The notes below the pieces were generated by a model, which saw nothing but the letters and a program-made list of their open reading frames with translations, had not been told where the DNA came from and made no database searches. A program made the translations under genes and the position numbers. DNA of 57,336 nt from Lachnospiraceae bacterium (GTDB lineage Bacteria > Bacillota > Clostridia > Lachnospirales > Lachnospiraceae): positions 1 to 57,336 of the forward strand of contig JAEEQL010000005.1 in the NCBI GenBank assembly GCA_016285265.1, given 5' to 3'. The first letter of the stretch is position 1. Every line of letters starts with the position of its first letter. Of the stretch, positions 17,768-30,994 are shown one piece after another.

Positions 17768-17787
17768 TCATTTCAAGTTAATAAAAA

Positions 17788-17955
17788 CGGTAGAGGTTGC
17801 GTCAATCAAAAGTAGTAAATCGGATGTGCCGTACACAGACGAAGATTTATGAAAGGGTGAGACGCCGAAGGAACGGTTTATACGGAGGACCGGATCCTGG
17901 GCATACGATCAATAGTCGTATAACTGTCATCCCGAGAGGGATGGGGAGCTATCAA
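17788..17955 (+). promoter_or_regulatory. Lysine riboswitch (L box) aptamer
   Basis: This fills most of the 362-base gap before dapA. Conserved L-box elements appear in order: GGTAGAGG...GCG at the 5' side, AGTAGTAA, GAAAGGGTGAGACGCCGAAG, CTGGGCATACG...CGTAT, ACTGTCA, and GGGAGCTATC at the 3' side, which closes helix P1 with GGTAG through one G-U pair. The family binds lysine and turns off synthesis or uptake genes. Its placement before dapA and dapB fits feedback control of the diaminopimelate/lysine branch. Confidence 0.95.
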
Positions 17956-17971
17956 ATTATTTGTTGATAAC

Positions 17972-18076: not shown

Positions 18077-19012
18077 ATGAGCAAACCGATTTTCACAGGA
18101 GCAGCAGTTGCACTCGTAACACCCATGACCGCAGACGGAAGTGTTAATTTCGAGAAGCTTGACGAGCTGATCGAGTTCCAGATCGAGGGCGGAACCGATG
18201 CGATCGTTGCATGCGGCACCACCGGTGAGGCATCAACCCTTACACACGAGGAGCACCTGAATGTCATCAGACATACGGTAGAGAAGGTTGCCGGAAGAGT
18301 TCCCGTTATCGCAGGAACCGGATCCAACAGCACCGAGACCGCTATCTACCTCAGCGTTGAAGCAGAGAAGGCAGGAGCTGACGCTCTCCTTCTTGTAACC
18401 CCTTATTACAACAAGGCTACCCAGAACGGTCTTGTCGAGCATTTCTGCAAAACAGCGGATTCCGTCAAGATTCCCGTTATCCTTTACAACGTTCCTTCAA
18501 GAACCGGATGCAACATACTTCCCGCTACCGTCAAGAAGATCAGCGAGAGATCCGAGAACGTCGTAGCTATCAAGGAAGCGAGCGGAAACATATCTCAGGT
18601 CGCAACTCTTGCATCAATTATGCCCGAGGATTTCGCAATCTATTCCGGTAATGACGACCAGATCGTTCCCCTGCTTGCACTCGGCGGACTCGGAGTCATC
18701 TCCGTTCTTTCCAACGTAGCACCTAAGCAGACTCACGACATCGTTGCTTCTTACCTTGAGGGAGATGTAAAGAAGAGCTGCAAGCTTCAGCTTGAAGCAC
18801 TCGACCTCATCGCAAGCCTCTTCTGCGAAGTCAATCCCATCCCCGTTAAGACAGCACTCAATCTTATGGGAATGAATGCCGGACCTCTTCGTCTTCCCCT
18901 TACCGAGATGGAAGATGCAAATGCGGCAAGACTCAAGAAGTCACTTTCCGATTACGGCATCAAGGTAGCTGAAGGCGCAGTCATCAAATTCAACGACCTG
19001 AGCAAAGACTGA
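18077..19012 (+). CDS. dapA: 4-hydroxy-tetrahydrodipicolinate synthase
   Basis: Schiff-base aldolase joining pyruvate and aspartate semialdehyde, the first committed step to diaminopimelate and lysine. The length of 311 aa is slightly longer than the usual ~295. Seen: GTTGEASTLTHEEH near residue 48, VTPYYNKATQNGL with the catalytic Tyr near residue 133, and VAIKEASGN with the Schiff-base Lys near residue 164. Translation starts after GAGAGGAG. Downstream of a lysine riboswitch and upstream of dapB. Codons are strongly biased, as for a highly expressed gene. Confidence 0.98.
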   Translation: MSKPIFTGAAVALVTPMTADGSVNFEKLDELIEFQIEGGTDAIVACGTTGEASTLTHEEHLNVIRHTVEKVAGRVPVIAGTGSNSTETAIYLSVEAEKAGADALLLVTPYYNKATQNGLVEHFCKTADSVKIPVILYNVPSRTGCNILPATVKKISERSENVVAIKEASGNISQVATLASIMPEDFAIYSGNDDQIVPLLALGGLGVISVLSNVAPKQTHDIVASYLEGDVKKSCKLQLEALDLIASLFCEVNPIPVKTALNLMGMNAGPLRLPLTEMEDANAARLKKSLSDYGIKVAEGAVIKFNDLSKD

Positions 19013-22668: not shown

Positions 22669-22697
22669 ATGATAATAATCAGTCTATCGTGTATAAT
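22669..22697 (+). promoter_or_regulatory. Probable promoter of the GGDEF/partner-switch operon
   Basis: Perfect TATAAT at 22692-22697; the best -35 match is ATGATA at 22669-22674 with 17-base spacing (4 of 6). Nothing better was seen up to the next gene. Confidence 0.5.
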
Positions 22698-22730: not shown

Positions 22731-23951
22731 ATGGATTATGAGAAGATCATCAGCGATTTTGTAAAAAATCGTGCCGGAGAATTCATCATCACCGACAGAC
22801 AGGGTAATATACTCTATCGTAACGGCGTTGAGGATTTTACCGACGAACAGTGGTCGGCATGGTCTGCGTTCAACATCGACACGGAGACTATCGATCAGGA
22901 AGAAGACTGGGAAATTTCAGACAGAACCGGCGGCAATTATTACACCGCGCGTTCCCTTCCCGTGACTCAGGAAGGAACCGAGGTGATATTGCATCATGTC
23001 TACAATACCAGTCAGTACGCAACTCTTTTGCGTGATGTTTCGGGTTATCTTAAGGATTGGAGAGAACTGAGTGCATTCCAGACGGCAATGCTGGAAAAGC
23101 TTTCGGGTAACTACGAATCCTGTCTGCCGGTAGTTCTTAAGTATTTCAAGGTTTCAAGCGTCGTAATGTATATCGGCCGTGGCAGGAAGATGGAAAGACA
23201 TCTTCTTGACAAGGAGACCAAATCAATACAGAGCGTACGCATCGACAGAGAGGATGTTTTCGCCGTCACAAAGGGTGAGTTCAGAAAACTTCCGGGTCTC
23301 GGTGACAAGGATTATCTTTGTTACATCTGTGACAGTGCCATTCACGGCACCGATTATTCACTTTATCTATATGCTGACGGTCTCGAGGATGATGACAATT
23401 TCAGCATGCATTACAACGTCATAAAGCTGTTCATTGAAAACGGACTGCTGCGTGAACAGATCACTTACGAGAGCGAGCACGACAAGCTTACCGGTCTTTA
23501 CAACAAGGGTAAGTATATGTCGATGCTTTCCGATTTCATGCCCAAGCAGAATCAGGTTGCCATCTACAATATGGATGTCAATTATCTTAAGAGGACCAAT
23601 GACAATCTCGGACATGAAGCGGGAGATGCACTTCTCGTCAAGGCCGGAAGAAGTCTCCAGGCTGTCGAAAGAGACAATGTTTACGGTTTCCGTATGGGCG
23701 GAGATGAGTTCATGCTCCTCGGCTGGGATCTTACGGAAATCGAAGCCGAAAAGCTCAAGAAGGACTGGGAAGAAGCGCTTGCCAAGCTCAATGAGAACAA
23801 GGAAGAGGTTGAGTGTGTCATCGCATGCGGACTTGCTTACGGCAAGGATGATTTTGATCTGAAGGAGCTTCTTAAACTTGCGGACGACCGCATGTATGAG
23901 AATAAAGTAGCAATAAAAATATCACGGGGAGACGATCCTAACGCCCGGTGA
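22731..23951 (+). CDS. GGDEF-domain protein (putative diguanylate cyclase)
   Basis: 406-aa soluble protein predicted to make c-di-GMP. The start at 22731 follows GGGGGGTACAT; the ATG at 22704 lacks a ribosome site. Residues 1-110 look PAS-like (EFIITDRQGNILYRNG), a linker follows, and the GGDEF domain spans about 246-400: DKLTGLYNKGKY, first metal site NMDVNYLKRTND (Asp282), then the intact GGDEF at 323-327. The inhibitory I-site R-x-x-D is broken: Arg314 is present but the Asp position (317) is Val, so classical product inhibition is unlikely. The STAS gene follows after 22 nt, which suggests a functional partner. Confidence 0.92.
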   Translation: MDYEKIISDFVKNRAGEFIITDRQGNILYRNGVEDFTDEQWSAWSAFNIDTETIDQEEDWEISDRTGGNYYTARSLPVTQEGTEVILHHVYNTSQYATLLRDVSGYLKDWRELSAFQTAMLEKLSGNYESCLPVVLKYFKVSSVVMYIGRGRKMERHLLDKETKSIQSVRIDREDVFAVTKGEFRKLPGLGDKDYLCYICDSAIHGTDYSLYLYADGLEDDDNFSMHYNVIKLFIENGLLREQITYESEHDKLTGLYNKGKYMSMLSDFMPKQNQVAIYNMDVNYLKRTNDNLGHEAGDALLVKAGRSLQAVERDNVYGFRMGGDEFMLLGWDLTEIEAEKLKKDWEEALAKLNENKEEVECVIACGLAYGKDDFDLKELLKLADDRMYENKVAIKISRGDDPNAR

Positions 23952-23973
23952 TCATATAAAAAAGGAGAACAAC

Positions 23974-24273
23974 ATGACTATCGACAAAAACCTTGACGGA
24001 ACAAAACTTGAGATCGCGCTTGAAGGAAGACTTGATACCATGACCGCACCTCAGCTTGAGGAGGAGGTCAAGAACAATATCGAAGGCATCAAGGAACTCA
24101 TCTTTGATCTTAAGAATCTTGCTTATGTTTCATCCGCAGGTCTTCGCGTACTTCTTTCCGCACAGAAGATCATGAACAAGCAGGGCAGCATGACTATCAG
24201 GAATGCAAACGAAGAAGTCATGGAGATATTCGAGGTTACCGGTTTCATCGATATTCTGAACATTGAGGAGTGA
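23974..24273 (+). CDS. STAS-domain anti-sigma factor antagonist (RsbV/SpoIIAA-like)
   Basis: 99-aa single STAS domain. EGRLDTMTAPQLEEEV and the phosphorylation loop YVSSAGLRVLLSAQK are typical; Ser54 (second Ser, before AGL) is the position phosphorylated by RsbW-type kinases and dephosphorylated by PP2C phosphatases, both of which are encoded later in the operon. Strong ribosome site (AAAAGGAGAAC). It is 22 nt after the GGDEF gene and 11 nt before the ATP-grasp gene. No sigma factor lies nearby, so its target may be the GGDEF protein or the ATPase-like tail of the MATE protein. Confidence 0.93.
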   Translation: MTIDKNLDGTKLEIALEGRLDTMTAPQLEEEVKNNIEGIKELIFDLKNLAYVSSAGLRVLLSAQKIMNKQGSMTIRNANEEVMEIFEVTGFIDILNIEE

Positions 24274-24284
24274 TATTTTAGTTT

Positions 24285-25427
24285 ATGAATACACTACCTA
24301 CCGGTATACAGGTTTTCGGTGACAACATCTATACTTTGCTCACCGGTAAATTCAATGAAGGCAGAGCCAGCCTGGATTCACTCTGTAACGCTGCAATAGT
24401 GCGCCTTGATCGCAAGATGCAGTTTTCTTCCATGAAGGATATTCCGAAACTGACAGAGGATCAGAAGGAGGAACTTCAGAAATTCTGGAGCCCATATGTA
24501 AGGCATATGGATGACAGATTCCACAGGCTCTGTACATTTCGTTCGGGCGGAAAATTCTATCCCGAATACATTCCCGAGGATTTCTATTTCATCCATATAG
24601 ATCGTTTTTACAACGACCGACGCGAATCCGCATATATGGATAATAAATGCTATTACGCGAAATTCTTTCCCCATACGCGTCAGCCCCGGACCATCGCTAT
24701 GCGTGTAGGTCACAACTGGCTGGATGAACACGGAAAACTCATTACCCGTGAGGAAGTAAAACACCGAATCAAGACCGAACCTGAGGTCGTGCTTAAGCGT
24801 GCGGTCTTTTCCGAGGGTGGCTTCGGTGTTCATTTTATTTCAGGAGAAGATATATTCGCGGAATTCCGTAAAGTCCTCAGAAAGATTCCTACGGATGTGA
24901 TTGTTCAGAAACCGATCAAACAGCATCCGGATATGGCGGCACTCAATCCATCGTCGGTCAACACCCTGCGCATTATGAGCTGGCTTGACGGAAGCGATGT
25001 GAAGATTCTCTGTACGGCTGTCAGGATCGGTGTCGGAGGAGACCGTGTCGATAACATATCCCACGGCGGTCTTTTCTGCGGAGTAAGAAAGGATGGGTCG
25101 CTTACGAACGGATTTCTTCACGGAGCCGTAGAAACCGACAGGCATCCCGAGCACGGATATCTTTTCAGCGATATGAAGATTCCCAATCTTGATAAAGCTT
25201 ACGAACTGGTGAAAGATGCACATCCATCAATAAGCCACTTCAGGATAGCCGGATGGGACGTGGCCATCGATGAGGACGGAGAGCCTACCATGATCGAGGT
25301 AAATTTCTCGTTGTGCTGCGTGAATGATATCCAGTCGGTATGCGGTCCGCTGTTCGGCGATGATACGAAGAAGATGCTTAATGAAGTATTCAAAGGAAAG
25401 AAGGCACAGTACTCGGTGTTAATATGA
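24285..25427 (+). CDS. ATP-grasp ligase-like protein (sugar-transfer/glutamate-ligase related)
   Basis: 380-aa soluble protein of the ATP-grasp superfamily, closest in pattern to the group annotated as sugar-transfer-associated or alpha-L-glutamate ligase-like. Seen: VVLKRAVFSEGGFGVHF (nucleotide-binding lysine and glycine loop) near residue 166, IVQKPIKQHPDMAALNP then SVNTLRIMS near residues 205-230, and WDVAIDEDGEPTMIEVNFS near residue 325 with the metal-binding Glu/Asn. These enzymes form carboxylate-amine bonds through acyl phosphates; the substrate is unknown. Its stop overlaps the MATE start (ATGA). Confidence 0.82.
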   Translation: MNTLPTGIQVFGDNIYTLLTGKFNEGRASLDSLCNAAIVRLDRKMQFSSMKDIPKLTEDQKEELQKFWSPYVRHMDDRFHRLCTFRSGGKFYPEYIPEDFYFIHIDRFYNDRRESAYMDNKCYYAKFFPHTRQPRTIAMRVGHNWLDEHGKLITREEVKHRIKTEPEVVLKRAVFSEGGFGVHFISGEDIFAEFRKVLRKIPTDVIVQKPIKQHPDMAALNPSSVNTLRIMSWLDGSDVKILCTAVRIGVGGDRVDNISHGGLFCGVRKDGSLTNGFLHGAVETDRHPEHGYLFSDMKIPNLDKAYELVKDAHPSISHFRIAGWDVAIDEDGEPTMIEVNFSLCCVNDIQSVCGPLFGDDTKKMLNEVFKGKKAQYSVLI

Positions 25428-27148
25428 GCCACGACGACAGTTTTTTACGAAGACAATATCTGATCAATCTCTTTCCTATAATGTTCTCGCTTCTCGGCGG
25501 AACGATCAATGCACTTATCGACAGTGTGTTCATCTCGCTGAAGCTCGGGAAAGAAGGACTGAGTGCCGTGACCCTGTCCATGCCTGTATATCTTGTCATG
25601 TGCTGTATAGGAGCACTCATTGCCGCGGGAGGAAGCTTTCTTTCCGCACGTGAAGCCGGAAAAGATAACATCGGTGAAGCCAAAAGGTTTTACCATACTG
25701 CACTGACGCTGGGGCTTATAACCGGAATTCTTTTTTCACTGTTTGCGATTGCCGGAGATCCTATATCGGATTTTCTTGCCCAGGGAGATCAGCTCGGCGG
25801 ATTTATTTATCCTTATATTTTTGTTACACTCATTGGTTCTCTTCCGTTTATGATGATCTACTTTCCGGTTTTCTATCTCCAGCTTGCCGGAAAGAGAAAA
25901 GAGATCTCCATGATGACCGTCATCATGGTTATCGCGGATTCCGTTCTTGATATTGTTCTTCTGTATATTATCCCGATGGGTATGACGGGTGCAGCGCTTG
26001 CCAGTGTTATCTCGACGCTTATCGCATGCATATACGGTTTCGCATGTCTTAACAGAAAAGATTCCGATTACCGCTTTGATGCAGGAATGTTTGGATTAAA
26101 AGGAAGCGGAACGATACTTCATTACGGAAGCCCCACCGCACTCGGCAATTTCTATGATGCGGTTCGTCTTTTTGCAGTCAATGCACTGATCTTAAAACTT
26201 GCGGGGGCAAGCGGAGCGGCCGTATGGGCAATACTTAACACATTGTCCGAACTGTCTCTTATGATAGTTTCCGGTGTTCCTCAGGCGGGAGCTCCGATGA
26301 CGGGGGTTTATCATTCGGCAAGGGAAAATACAGGCATACGTGTATTGTTCAAGCTTGAGATGCTTGTCGGATTTGTGATGAGTGTGGTTTTCTGCGGAGT
26401 GCTTGTTCTGATACACAGACCGCTTGAATTGCTTTTTAATTCGCCCGAAGTGCTGACCATGCCTCTCTTAAGTCTTGGTCTTTCGGTACTTGCCAATGTC
26501 ATATCCACGATATGGTCGGTTTACTTCAATGCTACGGGAAGGATTGTTCTTTCGAATATCCTGACGGCGCTCAGAAGACTTGTACTTCCGGTTGCCGTAC
26601 TGTTTTCGTATTGCTATATCGAAAATGCATATATCTGGAATTTCCTTCCGGTATCCGCTGTGTTATCCATCGTGCTGACGTGGATCATGGTTGCCGTTAT
26701 TTCGGCACTCAATTCCGGAAAGAAATATCCGCTTTCCGGAATGCTCCTGCTGGATGACCATCTTGAAAGAGAGAACAAGGTACTTGATTATTCCGTTGCG
26801 GCCAATGTCGAGAGCGTTTGCGATGCGAGTGAACGAATAAAGGAATTCTGCCTGGCCAATAATATGGATAAGAAGAATATCTATAAGATGGGTCTGGCAA
26901 TAGAGGAACTGCTCACCGTTATGATCCGGAAGAGCAACTCCGATCTTAAGACCATCGATATGAGAAGCTTTGCCCTTGATGACAATACCGGCATAAGGAT
27001 CCGATGCGCCGGTGAAAACTTTAATCCCTTTGATCATGTTGACGAGGATGAAGATTTCTACATGGGTATAAGCATGCTTCAAAAGACGGCTGCGTACGTG
27101 CATCACAGCTACACACTCGGTATGAATACGATAATCATTTTTTTGTAA
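25424..27148 (+). CDS. MATE family transporter fused to a C-terminal RsbW-like ATPase domain
   Basis: 574 aa. Residues 10-440 form a MATE/MOP-type transporter with about 12 membrane helices (NLFPIMFSLLGGTINALIDS, PIGMTGAALAS-like turns). Residues 455-574 are soluble and resemble the HATPase fold of anti-sigma kinases: GLAIEELLTVMI (N box, 490-501), CAGENFNP (G1 box, 528-535), YMGISMLQK (G2 box, 546-554) and LGMNTII. Compared with the free kinase at 30502, the N-box Asn (Asn47 there) is Val499 here and the G1-box Asp (Asp79 there) is Cys528, so ATP binding or catalysis is probably lost. I infer a transporter with a built-in partner-binding domain. Start codon overlaps the upstream stop. Confidence 0.88.
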   Translation: MSHDDSFLRRQYLINLFPIMFSLLGGTINALIDSVFISLKLGKEGLSAVTLSMPVYLVMCCIGALIAAGGSFLSAREAGKDNIGEAKRFYHTALTLGLITGILFSLFAIAGDPISDFLAQGDQLGGFIYPYIFVTLIGSLPFMMIYFPVFYLQLAGKRKEISMMTVIMVIADSVLDIVLLYIIPMGMTGAALASVISTLIACIYGFACLNRKDSDYRFDAGMFGLKGSGTILHYGSPTALGNFYDAVRLFAVNALILKLAGASGAAVWAILNTLSELSLMIVSGVPQAGAPMTGVYHSARENTGIRVLFKLEMLVGFVMSVVFCGVLVLIHRPLELLFNSPEVLTMPLLSLGLSVLANVISTIWSVYFNATGRIVLSNILTALRRLVLPVAVLFSYCYIENAYIWNFLPVSAVLSIVLTWIMVAVISALNSGKKYPLSGMLLLDDHLERENKVLDYSVAANVESVCDASERIKEFCLANNMDKKNIYKMGLAIEELLTVMIRKSNSDLKTIDMRSFALDDNTGIRIRCAGENFNPFDHVDEDEDFYMGISMLQKTAAYVHHSYTLGMNTIIIFL

Positions 27149-27199
27149 AGGACAGATAAGTCAAGACTGCAGATACATAAATGGTTTTTGGGGGGATTT

Positions 27200-28801
27200 A
27201 TGCATTTTGATAATGCAGAATACTGGCATCGGCTTGAAGATGACTGTTTTCATGCTGATGAGATCAATCGGAACAATCTGCTGACTTTGATGCGTGACAA
27301 TAAGGATACCGCATTCGGAAAGGCCAACGGATTCGGATCGATCGACGGTATAGATGAATATCGAAGAAGACTCCCGCTTACGCATTACGAACCGTTCCGC
27401 GGTTATGTGGACAGGATGCTCGGAGGAAGTGAGAATGAACTGACCGCATACCCGGTCGTCAATTACTGCCGTACCTCCGGAACCGAAGGGGTGGCCAAGA
27501 ATATTCCCGTAACTTCCGAAGCGTTCAGAAGATATGGCAACGCGGTCGGATACCGCCAGGAAGAGATAATAAATGAATTCGGCGGAAAGAGACTGGTCAT
27601 CAATACTTTCAGGACCGATATTTCGAAAGAATCGACCGGGGACCTTCTTCTTTCGGAAGCACTGTTCAGATACCTGTATGAGGAAGGTTATCTCGACGAA
27701 TCACATTTTGCCGGAGGCTTTAAAACTCTTTTCTCCGATTCTCTCGGAGACAGGCTTTTCGTAAAACTCTGGGTGGGATTTGCCGAACCCGATATAACCG
27801 TACTGGAAAGCATCTTCCTGTATGACCTTCTGATCTTTTTTACATACCTGGAAGAATTTTGGGAAGAAGTCTTAAGTGCGATGACGAAGCGCCGCATACC
27901 GGAAGGGTATAAGATCCCCGATGACATACGCACATACCTGCTTTCACTTCCTGTCAGTAATGAAAGACTGAGCGAAGTCAGGAACCTGTGCATGGGAGGA
28001 GCTTACGGAATAGCCAAAAAGCTCTGGCCGCGATTAAAGCTTGTGAGCGGTGTCAGCAACAGGTCTTACTTTGCGGAGGATAAAACGCTCAGGGCATATA
28101 TCGGTGATGCACAGTACTATTATCTGGCATATTGCGCATCCGAGTGTTATATGGGCACTGCGGTTGAAGATAATGATTTCAATTATGTAATGATGCCCGA
28201 GACGGCATTTTATGAATATCTTCCCGTGGACGGAGGAGATGGTACCCTTCTTCCACTGGAACTTGAGATCGGAAAATGCTATAAGCCGGTGATCACCAAT
28301 TTCTCCGGATTGTACAGATATGTAATGGAGGATATACTCAGGGTTCAGGGTTTTCTCGGCAAGTCACCGATATTCGAGTTTGTAATGCGAAGCTCGCAGA
28401 CACTTAATATCGCGGGTGAAAAAATGGATATACATCTGGTTGAAAAAGCCGTTTCCGGGCTCGATGGTGATAACGGGATATCGGAATGGACGATCGGAAT
28501 AGAGCACGATACCACGCCCGGAAGATATTTCATAGTCGCTGTATCAACGGGGGGAAAGACAGGTTTCAACACGGATATCTCGAACCGGCTCGATGAGCTG
28601 TTATCGGAATTCAATCCGGATTATGCGGACCTGAGAGAAATGGATTACATACGGAAACCGCAGGTGCTTTTGCTTAAGCCGGGATCATACGGCAACGTTC
28701 TCAAGGAGATCGGACTTGCCGGCGGTCACAAAAAGCCTAATCATGTAGCCAATCAGGGATTCACCTATCAATCTTACAGAAAGTGGGTAGAGCAGAAATG
28801 A
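27200..28801 (+). CDS. GH3 auxin-responsive promoter family protein (acyl-acid amido synthetase-like)
   Basis: 533-aa soluble member of the GH3 family within the ANL adenylating superfamily; plant members adenylate acyl acids and transfer them to amino acids. Seen: CRTSGTEGVAKNIP near residues 91-104 (ATP-binding P-loop), ASECYMGTAVEDND near 312, MMPETAFYEYLP, and YRYVMEDILRVQGF near 372 followed by FEFVMRSSQTLNIAGEK. The ATG at 27200 follows GGGGGGATTT; a TTG at 27188 is less likely. The substrate in bacteria is generally unknown. Coupled by ATGA overlap to the phosphatase gene; 51 nt after the MATE gene. Confidence 0.86.
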   Translation: MHFDNAEYWHRLEDDCFHADEINRNNLLTLMRDNKDTAFGKANGFGSIDGIDEYRRRLPLTHYEPFRGYVDRMLGGSENELTAYPVVNYCRTSGTEGVAKNIPVTSEAFRRYGNAVGYRQEEIINEFGGKRLVINTFRTDISKESTGDLLLSEALFRYLYEEGYLDESHFAGGFKTLFSDSLGDRLFVKLWVGFAEPDITVLESIFLYDLLIFFTYLEEFWEEVLSAMTKRRIPEGYKIPDDIRTYLLSLPVSNERLSEVRNLCMGGAYGIAKKLWPRLKLVSGVSNRSYFAEDKTLRAYIGDAQYYYLAYCASECYMGTAVEDNDFNYVMMPETAFYEYLPVDGGDGTLLPLELEIGKCYKPVITNFSGLYRYVMEDILRVQGFLGKSPIFEFVMRSSQTLNIAGEKMDIHLVEKAVSGLDGDNGISEWTIGIEHDTTPGRYFIVAVSTGGKTGFNTDISNRLDELLSEFNPDYADLREMDYIRKPQVLLLKPGSYGNVLKEIGLAGGHKKPNHVANQGFTYQSYRKWVEQK

Positions 28802-30498
28802 AAGAGAAGAAGATTTTTATCACAGGACTGACCGGAAGACTGATCCTCGGACTCGCTGTATTCGTTGCTGCGGTCACGGCCGGTTCCATCATCGTTGGTG
28901 TCAGAACGTATAGAAATTCGATCTACAGACACTACAATGAGATCGGTTACCAGATTGCAAAGTCTGTCGAGCTTCTTTTCGACTCTGACGAGCTTGAGGA
29001 GTGGGGCGAACTTACCTATAAGTTCAATACCACCGGAGAAGGTGCTGAGGAGATTGCTGAGGTAACCTCATCCGAAAGATTCCGTGAGCTTGAACAAACA
29101 CTTCTCAATCTCAGGACGGGTATGGATGTAAACGACATCTTCGTCGGCGTGATCAATCTCGGAGAACTAAGCGAGTTCACCATGGAAGGCATTATGGACG
29201 GAAGCTGGGCGCCCATATATTACATTATGGATACTTATCCCATGGAAGAGCAGCGCTTTTCTCTCGGTGACAGAAGTCCGATCACCCCCGACTACATTGA
29301 GGGTGCGGGCATATCCTACGCAAGCGGTATTCCTTATGACGGATATTTCGTCAATGAAGGAAATTACGGATACAACATCACCGCAGTTTATCCCATAGTA
29401 AAGAATGGAAAGACGATCGCATTTGTCGGTGTCGAGACACCCATGCGTACGCTTGAGTCCGATCTTAACAGATACATTTTTATTGTGCTGGTCATTGTAT
29501 GTATCATTTCTGTGATCCTTTTTATACTTACTGCCATAATCCTTGTAAATGCACTTATCAAGCCAATAAAGCTTATATCACATGAAGCCGCTTACTTCGT
29601 TGAGAACGAAAACGAGGTATCGCAGGAACTCAAAAAGGTACGCAACCGTGACGAGATCCAGGTGCTCGCTGAGAGCGTCCTCGCAATGGAGATCGGTATC
29701 AACGAATACATTGCCAACCTCACCAAGATAACTGCCGAGAAGGAGAGGATCGGAGCGGAACTTAATGTCGCCACGCAGATACAGGCGGACATGCTTCCCA
29801 GGATCTTCCCGGCATTCCCCGAAAGAACGGAATTCGATCTGTACGCTTCCATGAGCCCCGCCAAGGAAGTCGGTGGTGACTTCTATGACTTCTTCCTTAT
29901 AGATGACGATCATATCGGCCTTGTCATGGCAGACGTCTCGGGTAAGGGAGTTCCCGCAGCTTTGTTCATGGTCATTGCAAAGACCCTTATCAAGAACAGG
30001 GCTCAGATGGGAGGTTCACCCGCGGAGGTTCTTGCATATGCCAATGACCAGCTCGGAGAAGGCAATGAGGCAGAGCTGTTCGTAACCGTATGGTTCGCAA
30101 TCATCCAGATCTCAACCGGTAAGGGATTCGCCGCAAACGCAGGTCATGAGCATCCCGCTATCCGCAGAAAGGACGGCAGGTTCGAACTGGTCAAGTACCG
30201 CCACTCACCCGCGGTAGCAACGCTTCCCGGAATCAAGTTCAAGGAGCATGAATTCAAGCTTAATCCCGGAGACAGCCTCTATGTTTACACAGACGGTGTT
30301 ACCGAGGCGACAAGAGCCGATGATGTGCTTTTCGGTATCGACAGAATGCTTGAAGCACTTAACAAAAATCCCGATGCGGATCCCAAGACGATGCTCGACA
30401 ATGTACGTTCCGACATCGATCTGTTCGTAGGAGAAGCACCTCAGTTCGACGATATCACAATGCTCGGATTCAAGTACCTCGGATCCGGAAAGGAGTAA
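28798..30498 (+). CDS. Membrane PP2C-type (SpoIIE/RsbU) phosphatase with extracellular sensor and HAMP
   Basis: 566 aa. Transmembrane helix at residues 14-35, an extracytoplasmic sensor of about 190 residues with a Cache-like pattern (YNITAVYPIVKNGKTIAFVG), a second helix at about 226-250, HAMP at about 250-305, a helical linker, and a SpoIIE-type PP2C domain from about 345. Metal-binding motifs are intact: GGDFYDFF, MADVSGKGVPAALF, YVYTDGVTEA and FDDITMLGF. It should dephosphorylate the STAS protein on an external cue. The start overlaps the GH3 stop; the kinase gene follows after 3 nt. Confidence 0.93.
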   Translation: MKEKKIFITGLTGRLILGLAVFVAAVTAGSIIVGVRTYRNSIYRHYNEIGYQIAKSVELLFDSDELEEWGELTYKFNTTGEGAEEIAEVTSSERFRELEQTLLNLRTGMDVNDIFVGVINLGELSEFTMEGIMDGSWAPIYYIMDTYPMEEQRFSLGDRSPITPDYIEGAGISYASGIPYDGYFVNEGNYGYNITAVYPIVKNGKTIAFVGVETPMRTLESDLNRYIFIVLVIVCIISVILFILTAIILVNALIKPIKLISHEAAYFVENENEVSQELKKVRNRDEIQVLAESVLAMEIGINEYIANLTKITAEKERIGAELNVATQIQADMLPRIFPAFPERTEFDLYASMSPAKEVGGDFYDFFLIDDDHIGLVMADVSGKGVPAALFMVIAKTLIKNRAQMGGSPAEVLAYANDQLGEGNEAELFVTVWFAIIQISTGKGFAANAGHEHPAIRRKDGRFELVKYRHSPAVATLPGIKFKEHEFKLNPGDSLYVYTDGVTEATRADDVLFGIDRMLEALNKNPDADPKTMLDNVRSDIDLFVGEAPQFDDITMLGFKYLGSGKE

Positions 30499-30501
30499 GA
30501 T

Positions 30502-30909
30502 ATGCGGGAATTAAACATTGAAGCATTGGTTGAAAATCTCGATCAGGTTCTTGCATTTGTTGATGATGAGATCGATAAACTCGAATGCTCGGTCAAGATT
30601 CATACGCAGATAGATGTAGCCGTAGAAGAGCTTTTCGTAAACATCGCCCATTATGCTTATAAGCCGGATAGCGGTCCCGCTACCGTGCGCGTCGAGGTCG
30701 AAAAGGATCCGCCCGCAATATCGATAACATTCATCGATCACGGTATCCCTTACGATCCGCTTGCCAAGGACGATCCCGATATAACTCTTTCTGCGGAAGA
30801 CCGTGAGATCGGCGGACTCGGCATATTCATGGTCAAAAAGAGCATGGACAGCATAGAGTACGAATATAAGGACGGACAGAACATCCTTCATATCCGTAAG
30901 CTGATCTGA
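30502..30909 (+). CDS. RsbW-like serine kinase (anti-sigma factor type ATPase)
   Basis: 135-aa stand-alone HATPase of the RsbW/SpoIIAB class. The N box DVAVEELFVNIAHYAY (Glu42, Glu43, Asn47), G1 box FIDHGIPYDP (Asp79, Gly81) and glycine-rich G2 box GGLGIFMVKK (104-113) are intact, so it should bind ATP and phosphorylate the STAS protein. Last gene of the operon, 3 nt after the phosphatase. The usual sigma factor partner is not encoded next to it; the regulated partner could be the GGDEF protein or the MATE tail. Confidence 0.92.
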   Translation: MRELNIEALVENLDQVLAFVDDEIDKLECSVKIHTQIDVAVEELFVNIAHYAYKPDSGPATVRVEVEKDPPAISITFIDHGIPYDPLAKDDPDITLSAEDREIGGLGIFMVKKSMDSIEYEYKDGQNILHIRKLI

Positions 30910-30928: not shown

Positions 30929-30994
30929 GAAACAGGGGGGACGGTTCTGCTGTTTACATTGTCCCTGTAAACAGCAGAACCGCCCCCCTGTTTC
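30929..30994. terminator. Large palindrome with GGGGGGACGGTTC core, likely bidirectional terminator
   Basis: Arms at 30929-30957 and 30967-30994 are complementary over 28 positions with one bulged A, around a 9-base loop. Both flanks are T-rich on the outgoing strand. It lies between convergent genes. The core is shared with 16109-16157 and, as a half copy, 32903-32930. Confidence 0.8.

Follow-up and report, generated by a model that had tools for sequence, protein, structure and literature searches.

A Lachnospiraceae operon combining the parts of an RsbU/V/W-type partner switch and a diguanylate cyclase with two ligases and a MATE exporter that bears a predicted pseudo-RsbW tail

The 57,336-nucleotide stretch of Lachnospiraceae DNA analyzed here (hereafter the window; contig JAEEQL010000005.1 of assembly GCA_016285265.1, a genome of 2.7 Mb in 190 contigs) carries at 22731 to 30909 of the forward (+) strand a seven-gene operon, in which the parts of a partner switch are found together with two ligases and an exporter. 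The genes code, in order, for a GGDEF diguanylate cyclase, a STAS protein, an ATP-grasp ligase, a MATE exporter with a C-terminal tail, a GH3-family ligase, a PP2C phosphatase and an RsbW-like kinase. This order, initially proposed from the bare sequence (the original prediction), agrees with the Pfam names of the products; all seven reading frames are open on the + strand where that prediction had placed them, and the intergenic gaps, when recomputed, came out identically at 22, 11, −4, 51, −4 and 3 nucleotides (nt). Its claim that the partner-switch parts come without a sigma factor also holds, in that neither Pfam nor NCBIfam assigns any of the seven products to a sigma factor family.

The two ends of the operon supply the partner-switch core. 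The first gene (22731..23951, +) encodes a diguanylate cyclase (PF00990, E 7e-24) with an intact GGDEF motif at residue 323 and an N-terminal part that is PAS/GAF-like as judged by eye. It is followed by the gene for an RsbV/SpoIIAA-like STAS protein (23974..24273, +; PF01740, E 3e-15, and above the cut-off for NCBIfam ant_ant_sig), the putative phosphorylated hub of the circuit, whose SSAG motif at position 53 places a Ser/Thr in the conserved loop; Ser54, which by eye corresponds to the serine of SpoIIAA, is presumably the phosphorylation site. At the distal end, a SpoIIE-type PP2C Ser/Thr phosphatase with a membrane sensor (28798..30498, +; PF07228, E 3e-45) displays metal-site motifs (GGDFYDF, DVSGKG, DGVTEA and FDDITML) and a linker that appears HAMP-like by eye. 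Last comes an RsbW-like kinase (30502..30909, +; PF13581, E 3e-22) with intact N, G1 and G2 boxes, and a search of the source genome with this protein as query gives, at E 0.001, no hit other than the kinase itself. The sequence marks of an RsbU/V/W-type partner switch, namely the SpoIIE phosphatase motifs, the Ser/Thr in the STAS loop and the GHKL kinase boxes, are all present. The outer part of the phosphatase (about residues 34–226, with membrane ends set by eye; 28897..29475, +) is predicted to be a Cache-like sensor: its AlphaFold2 model has a pLDDT of 91.2 and weakly matches the Cache sensors WalK, Tlp3 and TlpQ in the PDB (TM-scores by query of 0.28–0.50 over the first 23 matches). We rejected its assignment as a classical dCache_1 receptor, there being no Pfam dCache_1 match; dCache_1 domains on SpoIIE phosphatases have been described as possible receptors of autoinducer-2 (PMC7584622, PMC9540692; here and throughout, statements from the literature rest on excerpts of the papers cited).

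According to the original prediction, no system of this composition was known to have been described, a claim that has to be narrowed because the GGDEF/STAS/PP2C/RsbW part has precedents in SiaABCD and BgrUVW-BgrR (PMC8457831, PMC7647112). In the SiaABCD system of Pseudomonas aeruginosa, a PP2C phosphatase, a kinase, a STAS-like protein and a diguanylate cyclase are likewise encoded in one operon and the state of SiaC controls the cyclase; it differs in that SiaC is a DUF1987 protein and in that the four-gene module, as the excerpts present it, has no ligases or exporter (PMC8457831, PMC7647112). The BgrU/BgrV/BgrW-BgrR system of Sinorhizobium meliloti, which we liken by its description rather than by sequence, again comprises a phosphatase, a STAS protein, a kinase and a diguanylate cyclase, with cargo genes unmentioned in those excerpts (PMC7647112, PMC8457831). 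In the HsbR/HsbA/HsbD system of P. aeruginosa, a STAS protein also binds a diguanylate cyclase according to its phosphorylation state, but one bifunctional regulator stands in place of the PP2C and RsbW pair and HsbA additionally acts on FlgM (PMC5085249). Control of diguanylate cyclases by the phosphorylation state of a STAS protein is thus on record for SiaC-SiaD, BgrV-BgrR and HsbA-HsbD; however, HsbA binds when phosphorylated, whereas the binding of SiaC is prevented by phosphorylation (PMC8457831, PMC7647112, PMC5085249), and given this opposite polarity the direction of the switch in the present operon is not predictable. By analogy, we assign the GGDEF, STAS, PP2C and RsbW proteins to an established class of circuits, in which a partner switch acts on a diguanylate cyclase, and expect them to work like SiaABCD. 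We do not file it as a member of the SiaABCD family: the closest NCBIfam relative of the phosphatase is SiaA, whose cut-off is missed by far (56.9 versus 700 bits), and the operon also stays far below the cut-off of SiaD (70.9 versus 290 bits).

The exporter adds a further RsbW-like element. The membrane part of the MATE protein (residues 1–440; 25424..26743, +; PF01554, E 7e-13) has a MatE domain above the cut-off, with TIGR00797 below it (89.8 of 147.4), and continues into a tail formed by its last 134 residues (26744..27148, +), which has no Pfam match up to E 0.1. The AlphaFold2 model of this tail, built with 12 relatives, has a mean pLDDT of 86.9, and its first 19 PDB matches are all SpoIIAB, RsbW or UsfX chains (TM-scores by query of 0.57–0.75). 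A motif alignment reveals that in the genus orthologs the N-box Asn is replaced by Val and the G1 Asp by Cys, both of which are retained in the separate kinase. The original prediction had called this tail ATPase-like; it has the RsbW/SpoIIAB fold, but with the nucleotide-binding Asn and Asp lost a working ATPase or kinase is implausible and was rejected. We therefore consider the tail a predicted pseudo-kinase with a degenerate RsbW/SpoIIAB fold.

The family is rich in MATE proteins that carry a C-terminal domain of this kind. Our tail alignment of 66 rows was collapsed to 60 by counting the genus orthologs, as well as the L039/L040 pair, once per class (L and G numbers are our labels for loci and genomes). 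Fifty-three of these rows derive from L032–L132, a set partly chosen for GH3 in which L032 represents the window: the motifs are kept in 42, degenerate in 10 and mixed in one (L100). The remaining seven derive from a scan of named genomes and are all pseudo-tails, as was the query of that scan; six of the seven have a PP2C gene in their run. Across L032–L132, a PP2C gene lies in the same-strand run of 6/10 pseudo-tails versus 3/42 intact ones (Fisher p 0.0007) and, when only loci fetched by the tail alone are counted, of 3/6 versus 2/36 (p 0.015), with p values that, like the others given for tail contexts, ignore kinship and multiple testing. For STAS, RsbW and GH3 in the run, the same comparison gives p 0.020, 0.043 and 0.035, respectively; at the tail-alone loci STAS and RsbW give p 0.091 and 0.049, and GH3 occurs in neither class. 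Moreover, in 15 of 15 strain pairs and in 13 of 13 pairs from another set (three pairs being common to both), conservation is higher in the tail than in the membrane portion of the MATE protein.

Several neighborhoods of MATE-tail genes hold further observations. Two ATP-binding cassette (ABC) transporter ATPases (L138:8492-9583, recognized by Pfam, and L039:6155-7249, recognized by eye) have an extra C-terminal stretch matching the RsbW-like tail model; lying beside pseudo-tail MATE operons, they may represent another transporter family equipped with this kind of tail. In L039 (14718-19999) and L040 (11665-18498), a second MATE-tail gene, with motifs intact, stands just after the pseudo-tail operon; its neighbors include an acyltransferase, in L039 a protein with a weak AMP-binding match below the cut-off and in L040 a nonribosomal peptide synthetase (NRPS)-like protein. 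Proteins of about 390 residues with an N-terminal STAS domain adjoin MATE-tail genes in L093 (3087-4262), L096 (7432-9945) and L074 (7776-8954), and the one that was scanned, from L093, also contains a phosphotransferase (APH) domain.

Flanking the exporter gene are those for the two ligases. The upstream one (24285..25427, +) codes for an ATP-grasp protein of the ATPgrasp_ST family (PF14397, E 2e-37), which has no match among PDB sequences at E 1. The downstream one (27200..28801, +) codes for a putative acyl-acid amido synthetase with N-terminal, central and C-terminal GH3 domains (PF03321, E 4e-42), whose profile matches the plant enzymes JAR1 (E 5e-104) and GH3.12. The nucleotide motifs TSGT, ASE and GLYRY are present, motif III being partly deviant (GLYRYVMED). 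Along with the reported synthesis of N-acyl ornithine by OlsH, a bacterial GH3-family lyso-ornithine lipid synthetase whose homologs may make other N-acyl amino acids (PMC12493201), these profile matches favor the predicted role as an amide-forming enzyme. OlsH shares with the GH3 protein the family and its ATP-dependent amide formation (PMC12493201); nevertheless, the similarity is low, and the operon's seven proteins include no OlsI-like protein. A parallel to the pairing of ligases is offered by the E-64 pathway, whose product is assembled, with no NRPS involved, by an ATP-grasp enzyme together with another free-standing amide-forming enzyme, an amide bond synthetase; it is, however, fungal, uses other enzymes and comes without mention of signaling genes in the excerpts (PMC12568646). 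Elsewhere, GH3 proteins of about 850–866 residues are encoded next to STAS genes (L061:9043-11643, L062:9067-11652 and L043:2873-5419), and a family 2 glycosyltransferase domain lies at the N terminus of the one scanned, from L061.

The operon is both conserved and modular within its genus. Orthologs of the GGDEF protein of at least 82% identity occur in 10 of the 31 genus genomes, the window's own included, and in all 10 they are accompanied by the STAS, PP2C and RsbW genes in a SiaABCD-like four-part operon (split over two contigs in G411). Between STAS and PP2C lies a slot of variable content. In six of the 10 (the window's own genome, G411, G405, G408, G116 and G421), it is occupied by the ATP-grasp, MATE and GH3 cassette, with order and strand kept in the five other species; hence, the seven-gene order is more than chance, and we rejected the alternative that this is not a real operon. 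In G397 and G412, the slot instead holds a gene for a protein of 1413–1427 residues, along with a second phosphatase; the slot protein of G397, the one scanned, is NRPS-like, with condensation, adenylation, carrier and reductase-like domains. In G409 and G410 the slot is empty, and the order is GGDEF, STAS, RsbW, PP2C. Since the core thus stands alone in two congeners and is joined by an NRPS-like gene in two, the seven genes are not all mutually dependent. The genus loci share their outer flanking genes; in G397, G412, G409, G410 and G421, GGDEF is preceded by about four additional genes. The GGDEF, STAS and these upstream genes of G421 group with the cassette-free clade, and its sensor lies nearer the cassette clade; since the unrooted topologies agree, the pattern may stem from a loss in the remaining four and not from a transfer. 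The second phosphatase of the congeners with the NRPS-like gene (L113:12260-13732 and L114:11351-12823) has a different membrane part and a catalytic part 86–87% identical to that of the window phosphatase. Of five genus records, four are Lachnospiraceae metagenome-assembled genomes, with sheep omasum, yak rumen and buffalo rumen as the sources of three; the fifth, Lachnospiraceae bacterium AC2028, is probably an isolate.

Beyond the genus, a part of this gene set recurs. The scan of named genomes with the MATE-tail alignment yielded 15 loci, of which five are genus orthologs. Near the tail gene, the 10 others have genes for ATP-grasp (9), GH3 (8), PP2C (8), RsbW (3) and STAS (2); GH3 is missed in L142 (a 4.9-kb contig) and L146 (a 3.2-kb contig), and PP2C in L146 and in L140, which is cut inside the next gene. 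(The family search had already yielded the records of L142 and L143, labeled there L097 and L033.) The co-occurrence of MATE-tail, GH3 and phosphatase genes called for by the original prediction is thus found in other genera: further Clostridia repeatedly combine MATE-pseudo-RsbW with GH3 and PP2C, in most cases along with ATP-grasp. This does not extend to the diguanylate cyclase, as the mapped genes of these 10 loci include no GGDEF gene, and its membership of a wider cassette was rejected.

The GH3 family as a whole is more loosely connected. It is matched in 29 of 397 genomes of the family, and of 36 GH3 genes in 33 regions (L032–L064; one further place, on G076:C143, was left out of this long-region set), 10 have a MATE-tail gene, 10 a PP2C gene and 9 a STAS gene within 6 kb. 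In 19 random control regions of 20 kb (L167 having been dropped for its overlap with L040), there were no GH3, MATE-tail or ATP-grasp genes; one region had STAS, PP2C and RsbW, two had GGDEF and one had a tail-less MATE gene. The family models used for labeling derive from the proteins of the window and from the GH3 loci, which may bias them toward relatives of these; the same models were applied to the control. In the order, GH3 is found in 41 of 392 genomes, and STAS or PP2C is near four of 20 further GH3 loci. A quick tree of 49 GH3 proteins of at least 480 residues, in which the labels of L105–L110 come from short flanks too poor for context, unites most cassette GH3s in a single branch, with an SH-aLRT of 93 that becomes 99 when L034 and L140 are included; outside of it fall the GH3s of L039/L040, L044 and L050.

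From these observations we infer the following scheme. The membrane phosphatase would read an outside cue through its Cache-like domain and dephosphorylate the STAS protein, which the RsbW-like kinase would rephosphorylate. In one phosphorylation state the STAS protein would bind two outputs, with no sigma factor being freed. The first would be the GGDEF enzyme, as in SiaABCD or BgrUVW-BgrR. The second would be the pseudo-RsbW tail, which, probably no longer binding ATP, might serve as a docking domain coupling the STAS state to MATE transport. The exported product would be built by the GH3 enzyme, joining an acyl acid to an amine, and the ATP-grasp enzyme, forming a second bond. We give about an even chance to this reading, in which the partner switch governs the export of an amide-linked small molecule as well as the diguanylate cyclase, with the STAS protein switched among the kinase, the cyclase and the pseudo-kinase of the exporter. 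Sequences and models establish the protein families, their catalytic motifs, the fold of the tail with its lost residues, the conservation of the operon and its exchangeable cargo; the binding events, the product and its export are what the scheme proposes on top of these. The observational side of the original prediction has been confirmed, and its interpretation partly supported. STAS domains have been linked to transporters through SLC26 in a paper whose main text does not contain the word MATE (PMC8256260), and the titles and abstract openings among the literature matches listed give no account of a transporter that is reached by a partner switch by way of a degenerate kinase domain fused to it.

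Several results weigh against this reading. Among the mapped loci, GGDEF is joined to the set in this genus only, and L143–L145 have neither a STAS nor an RsbW gene within the fetched DNA; in L147, the search for these genes yields just an 80-residue piece matching part of the tail model. PP2C is missing from the run in four of the 10 pseudo-tails, and the association weakens in a looser count within 6 kb, to 6/10 versus 9/42 (p 0.024) or, for the tail-alone loci, 3/6 versus 7/36 (p 0.13). A MATE-tail gene adjoins GH3 at only two of the 20 order loci, so that the link is a property of part of the GH3 family; that GH3 always goes with MATE-tail and PP2C was rejected on this count and on the 10 of 36 GH3 genes in the family.

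A different view of the operon emerges from its alleles. The cassette-bearing genus operons fall into a type 1 (window, G411 and G405) and a type 2 (G408 and G116), with G421 as a third type. Between types 1 and 2, the identity is 66–69% for ATP-grasp, 73–74% for the MATE membrane part and 68–73% for the sensor, with synonymous divergence (dS) above 1.5 or saturated, versus 93–96% for GGDEF, 87–91% for GH3, 95–97% for the inner part of PP2C and 93–97% for RsbW. Comparing the window with G408, the background stands at 95% for M23, 96% for GGDEF, 96% for STAS and 94% for RsbW (dS 0.36–0.65), close to which are the phosphatase inner part (97%, dS 0.63) and GH3 (91%, dS 0.89); by contrast, ATP-grasp is at 66% (dS 2.1), the MATE membrane part at 73% (dS 1.6), the tail at 88% (dS saturated) and the phosphatase outer domain at 72% (dS 2.9). 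The split recurs when G116 is set against the window, G411 and G405, with flank and core proteins somewhat lower (86–99%), and G408 and G116 are themselves alike (ATP-grasp 90%, outer domain 89%). At the DNA level, identity to the window falls from about 91–94% to about 70% at the start of ATP-grasp, recovers to about 74–89% after MATE and drops again to 58–73% in the outer domain. The mosaic came to light on comparing L120 and L032 with the window at 24281-27100 and 28950-29400. These patterns suggest that two separate blocks, ATP-grasp plus MATE and the sensor, were replaced together, leaving GH3 between them at or near background divergence. The saturation or near-saturation of synonymous sites makes recombinational import a likelier explanation than rapid protein evolution by itself, and a chimeric bin is unlikely because the type-2 operon of G116 (AC2028) sits on an 806-kb contig of a 10-contig genome.

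Because maker, exporter and sensor appear to have been replaced together, autocrine signaling is worth testing, even though we consider it rather unlikely. Here the exported amide product would be the ligand of the Cache-like sensor in a pherotype-like manner. In the quorum-sensing systems ComQXPA and Agr, maker, signal and receptor diversify together over conserved inner signaling parts; lineages with the present operon could, if this doubtful parallel holds, diversify ATP-grasp, MATE and sensor in the same way around constant inner parts. The parallel differs in that those systems use peptide signals and histidine kinases, as opposed to the ligases, MATE exporter and Ser/Thr phosphatase seen here. 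Also in its favor, a segment of about 16 residues is present in all 13 aligned cassette-linked sensors (five of them from one genus) and missing from all four congener sensors, of that same genus, that lack this cassette. Conversely, the mosaic amounts to a single clear contrast plus the third type of G421, there being no such split in L033–L145, where GH3 is the most diverged, or in L144–L147, which differ nearly evenly; extracellular domains evolve fast in general; and distant sensors (9–21% identity) were left out of the comparison, namely those of L039 and L040 (at 21%, from loci with MATE and GH3 and no ATP-grasp in the run), the second phosphatases of L113/L114 and two more of L147.

We also weighed, as a rather improbable alternative, an envelope lipid system, in which the GH3 enzyme would make an N-acyl amino acid lipid in the manner of OlsH, ATP-grasp would decorate it and MATE would flip it, the product staying in the membrane and the phosphatase sensing either the envelope itself or an acid or amino acid from the surroundings. 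This alternative draws on OlsH being the sole NCBIfam match of the GH3 protein (86.2 versus 620 bits, below the cut-off), on the family name ATPgrasp_ST, which denotes an association with sugar transfer, and on the amino acid and small acid receptors among the weak PDB matches of the sensor. However, Pfam identifies no acyltransferase or carrier protein among the seven products, and the reductase domain of the NRPS-like protein in the G397 slot suggests a released product. A partition into two co-transcribed modules without contact, a cyclic di-GMP switch and an efflux/biosynthesis cassette whose tail is a relic, would accommodate the core occurring without cargo and most fetched order GH3 loci lying outside such operons, but it is decidedly improbable given that the tail outdoes the membrane part in conservation in every pair, that pseudo-tails associate with PP2C genes, and that other genera repeatedly combine MATE-tail, GH3 and PP2C genes while lacking GGDEF at these loci.

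The operon is bounded by candidate regulatory elements. A weak sigma-70-like promoter (22669..22697, +; 10 of 12 consensus positions) lies 33 nt before the GGDEF start, and such sites are no commoner in this DNA than in shuffled sequence. A long, strong hairpin between convergent genes (30929..30994, no strand assigned; −59.2 kcal/mol, z −11.8) probably constitutes the terminator foreseen after the last gene; it is not among the calls of a simple terminator scan, and we rejected it as a genome-wide terminator repeat, its 14-base core having one exact copy in the genome. No c-di-GMP riboswitch in the window matches Rfam above the gathering score. A lysine riboswitch (109 bits) is present at 17783-17959, 117 nt upstream of a reading frame at 18077 that by eye has the appearance of a lysine-pathway gene.

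The known outputs of partner switches are the release of sigma factors and, in a small number of systems, the on/off control of diguanylate cyclases. If the proposed switching of the exporter is true, a degenerate kinase domain fused to a transporter would provide partner switches with a new kind of output. The swappable slot makes the same switch comparable with no cargo, with GH3/ATP-grasp/MATE cargo and with NRPS-like cargo. More tentatively, and on balance we think it unlikely, these loci might represent a new form of autocrine signaling in rumen Clostridia, with a ligase-made amide, tail-gated MATE export, a Ser/Thr phosphatase as the receptor and strain pherotypes. If maker and receptor do co-diversify, they would offer a direct handle on the chemical signals of rumen Clostridia, for which AC2028 could be the starting point.

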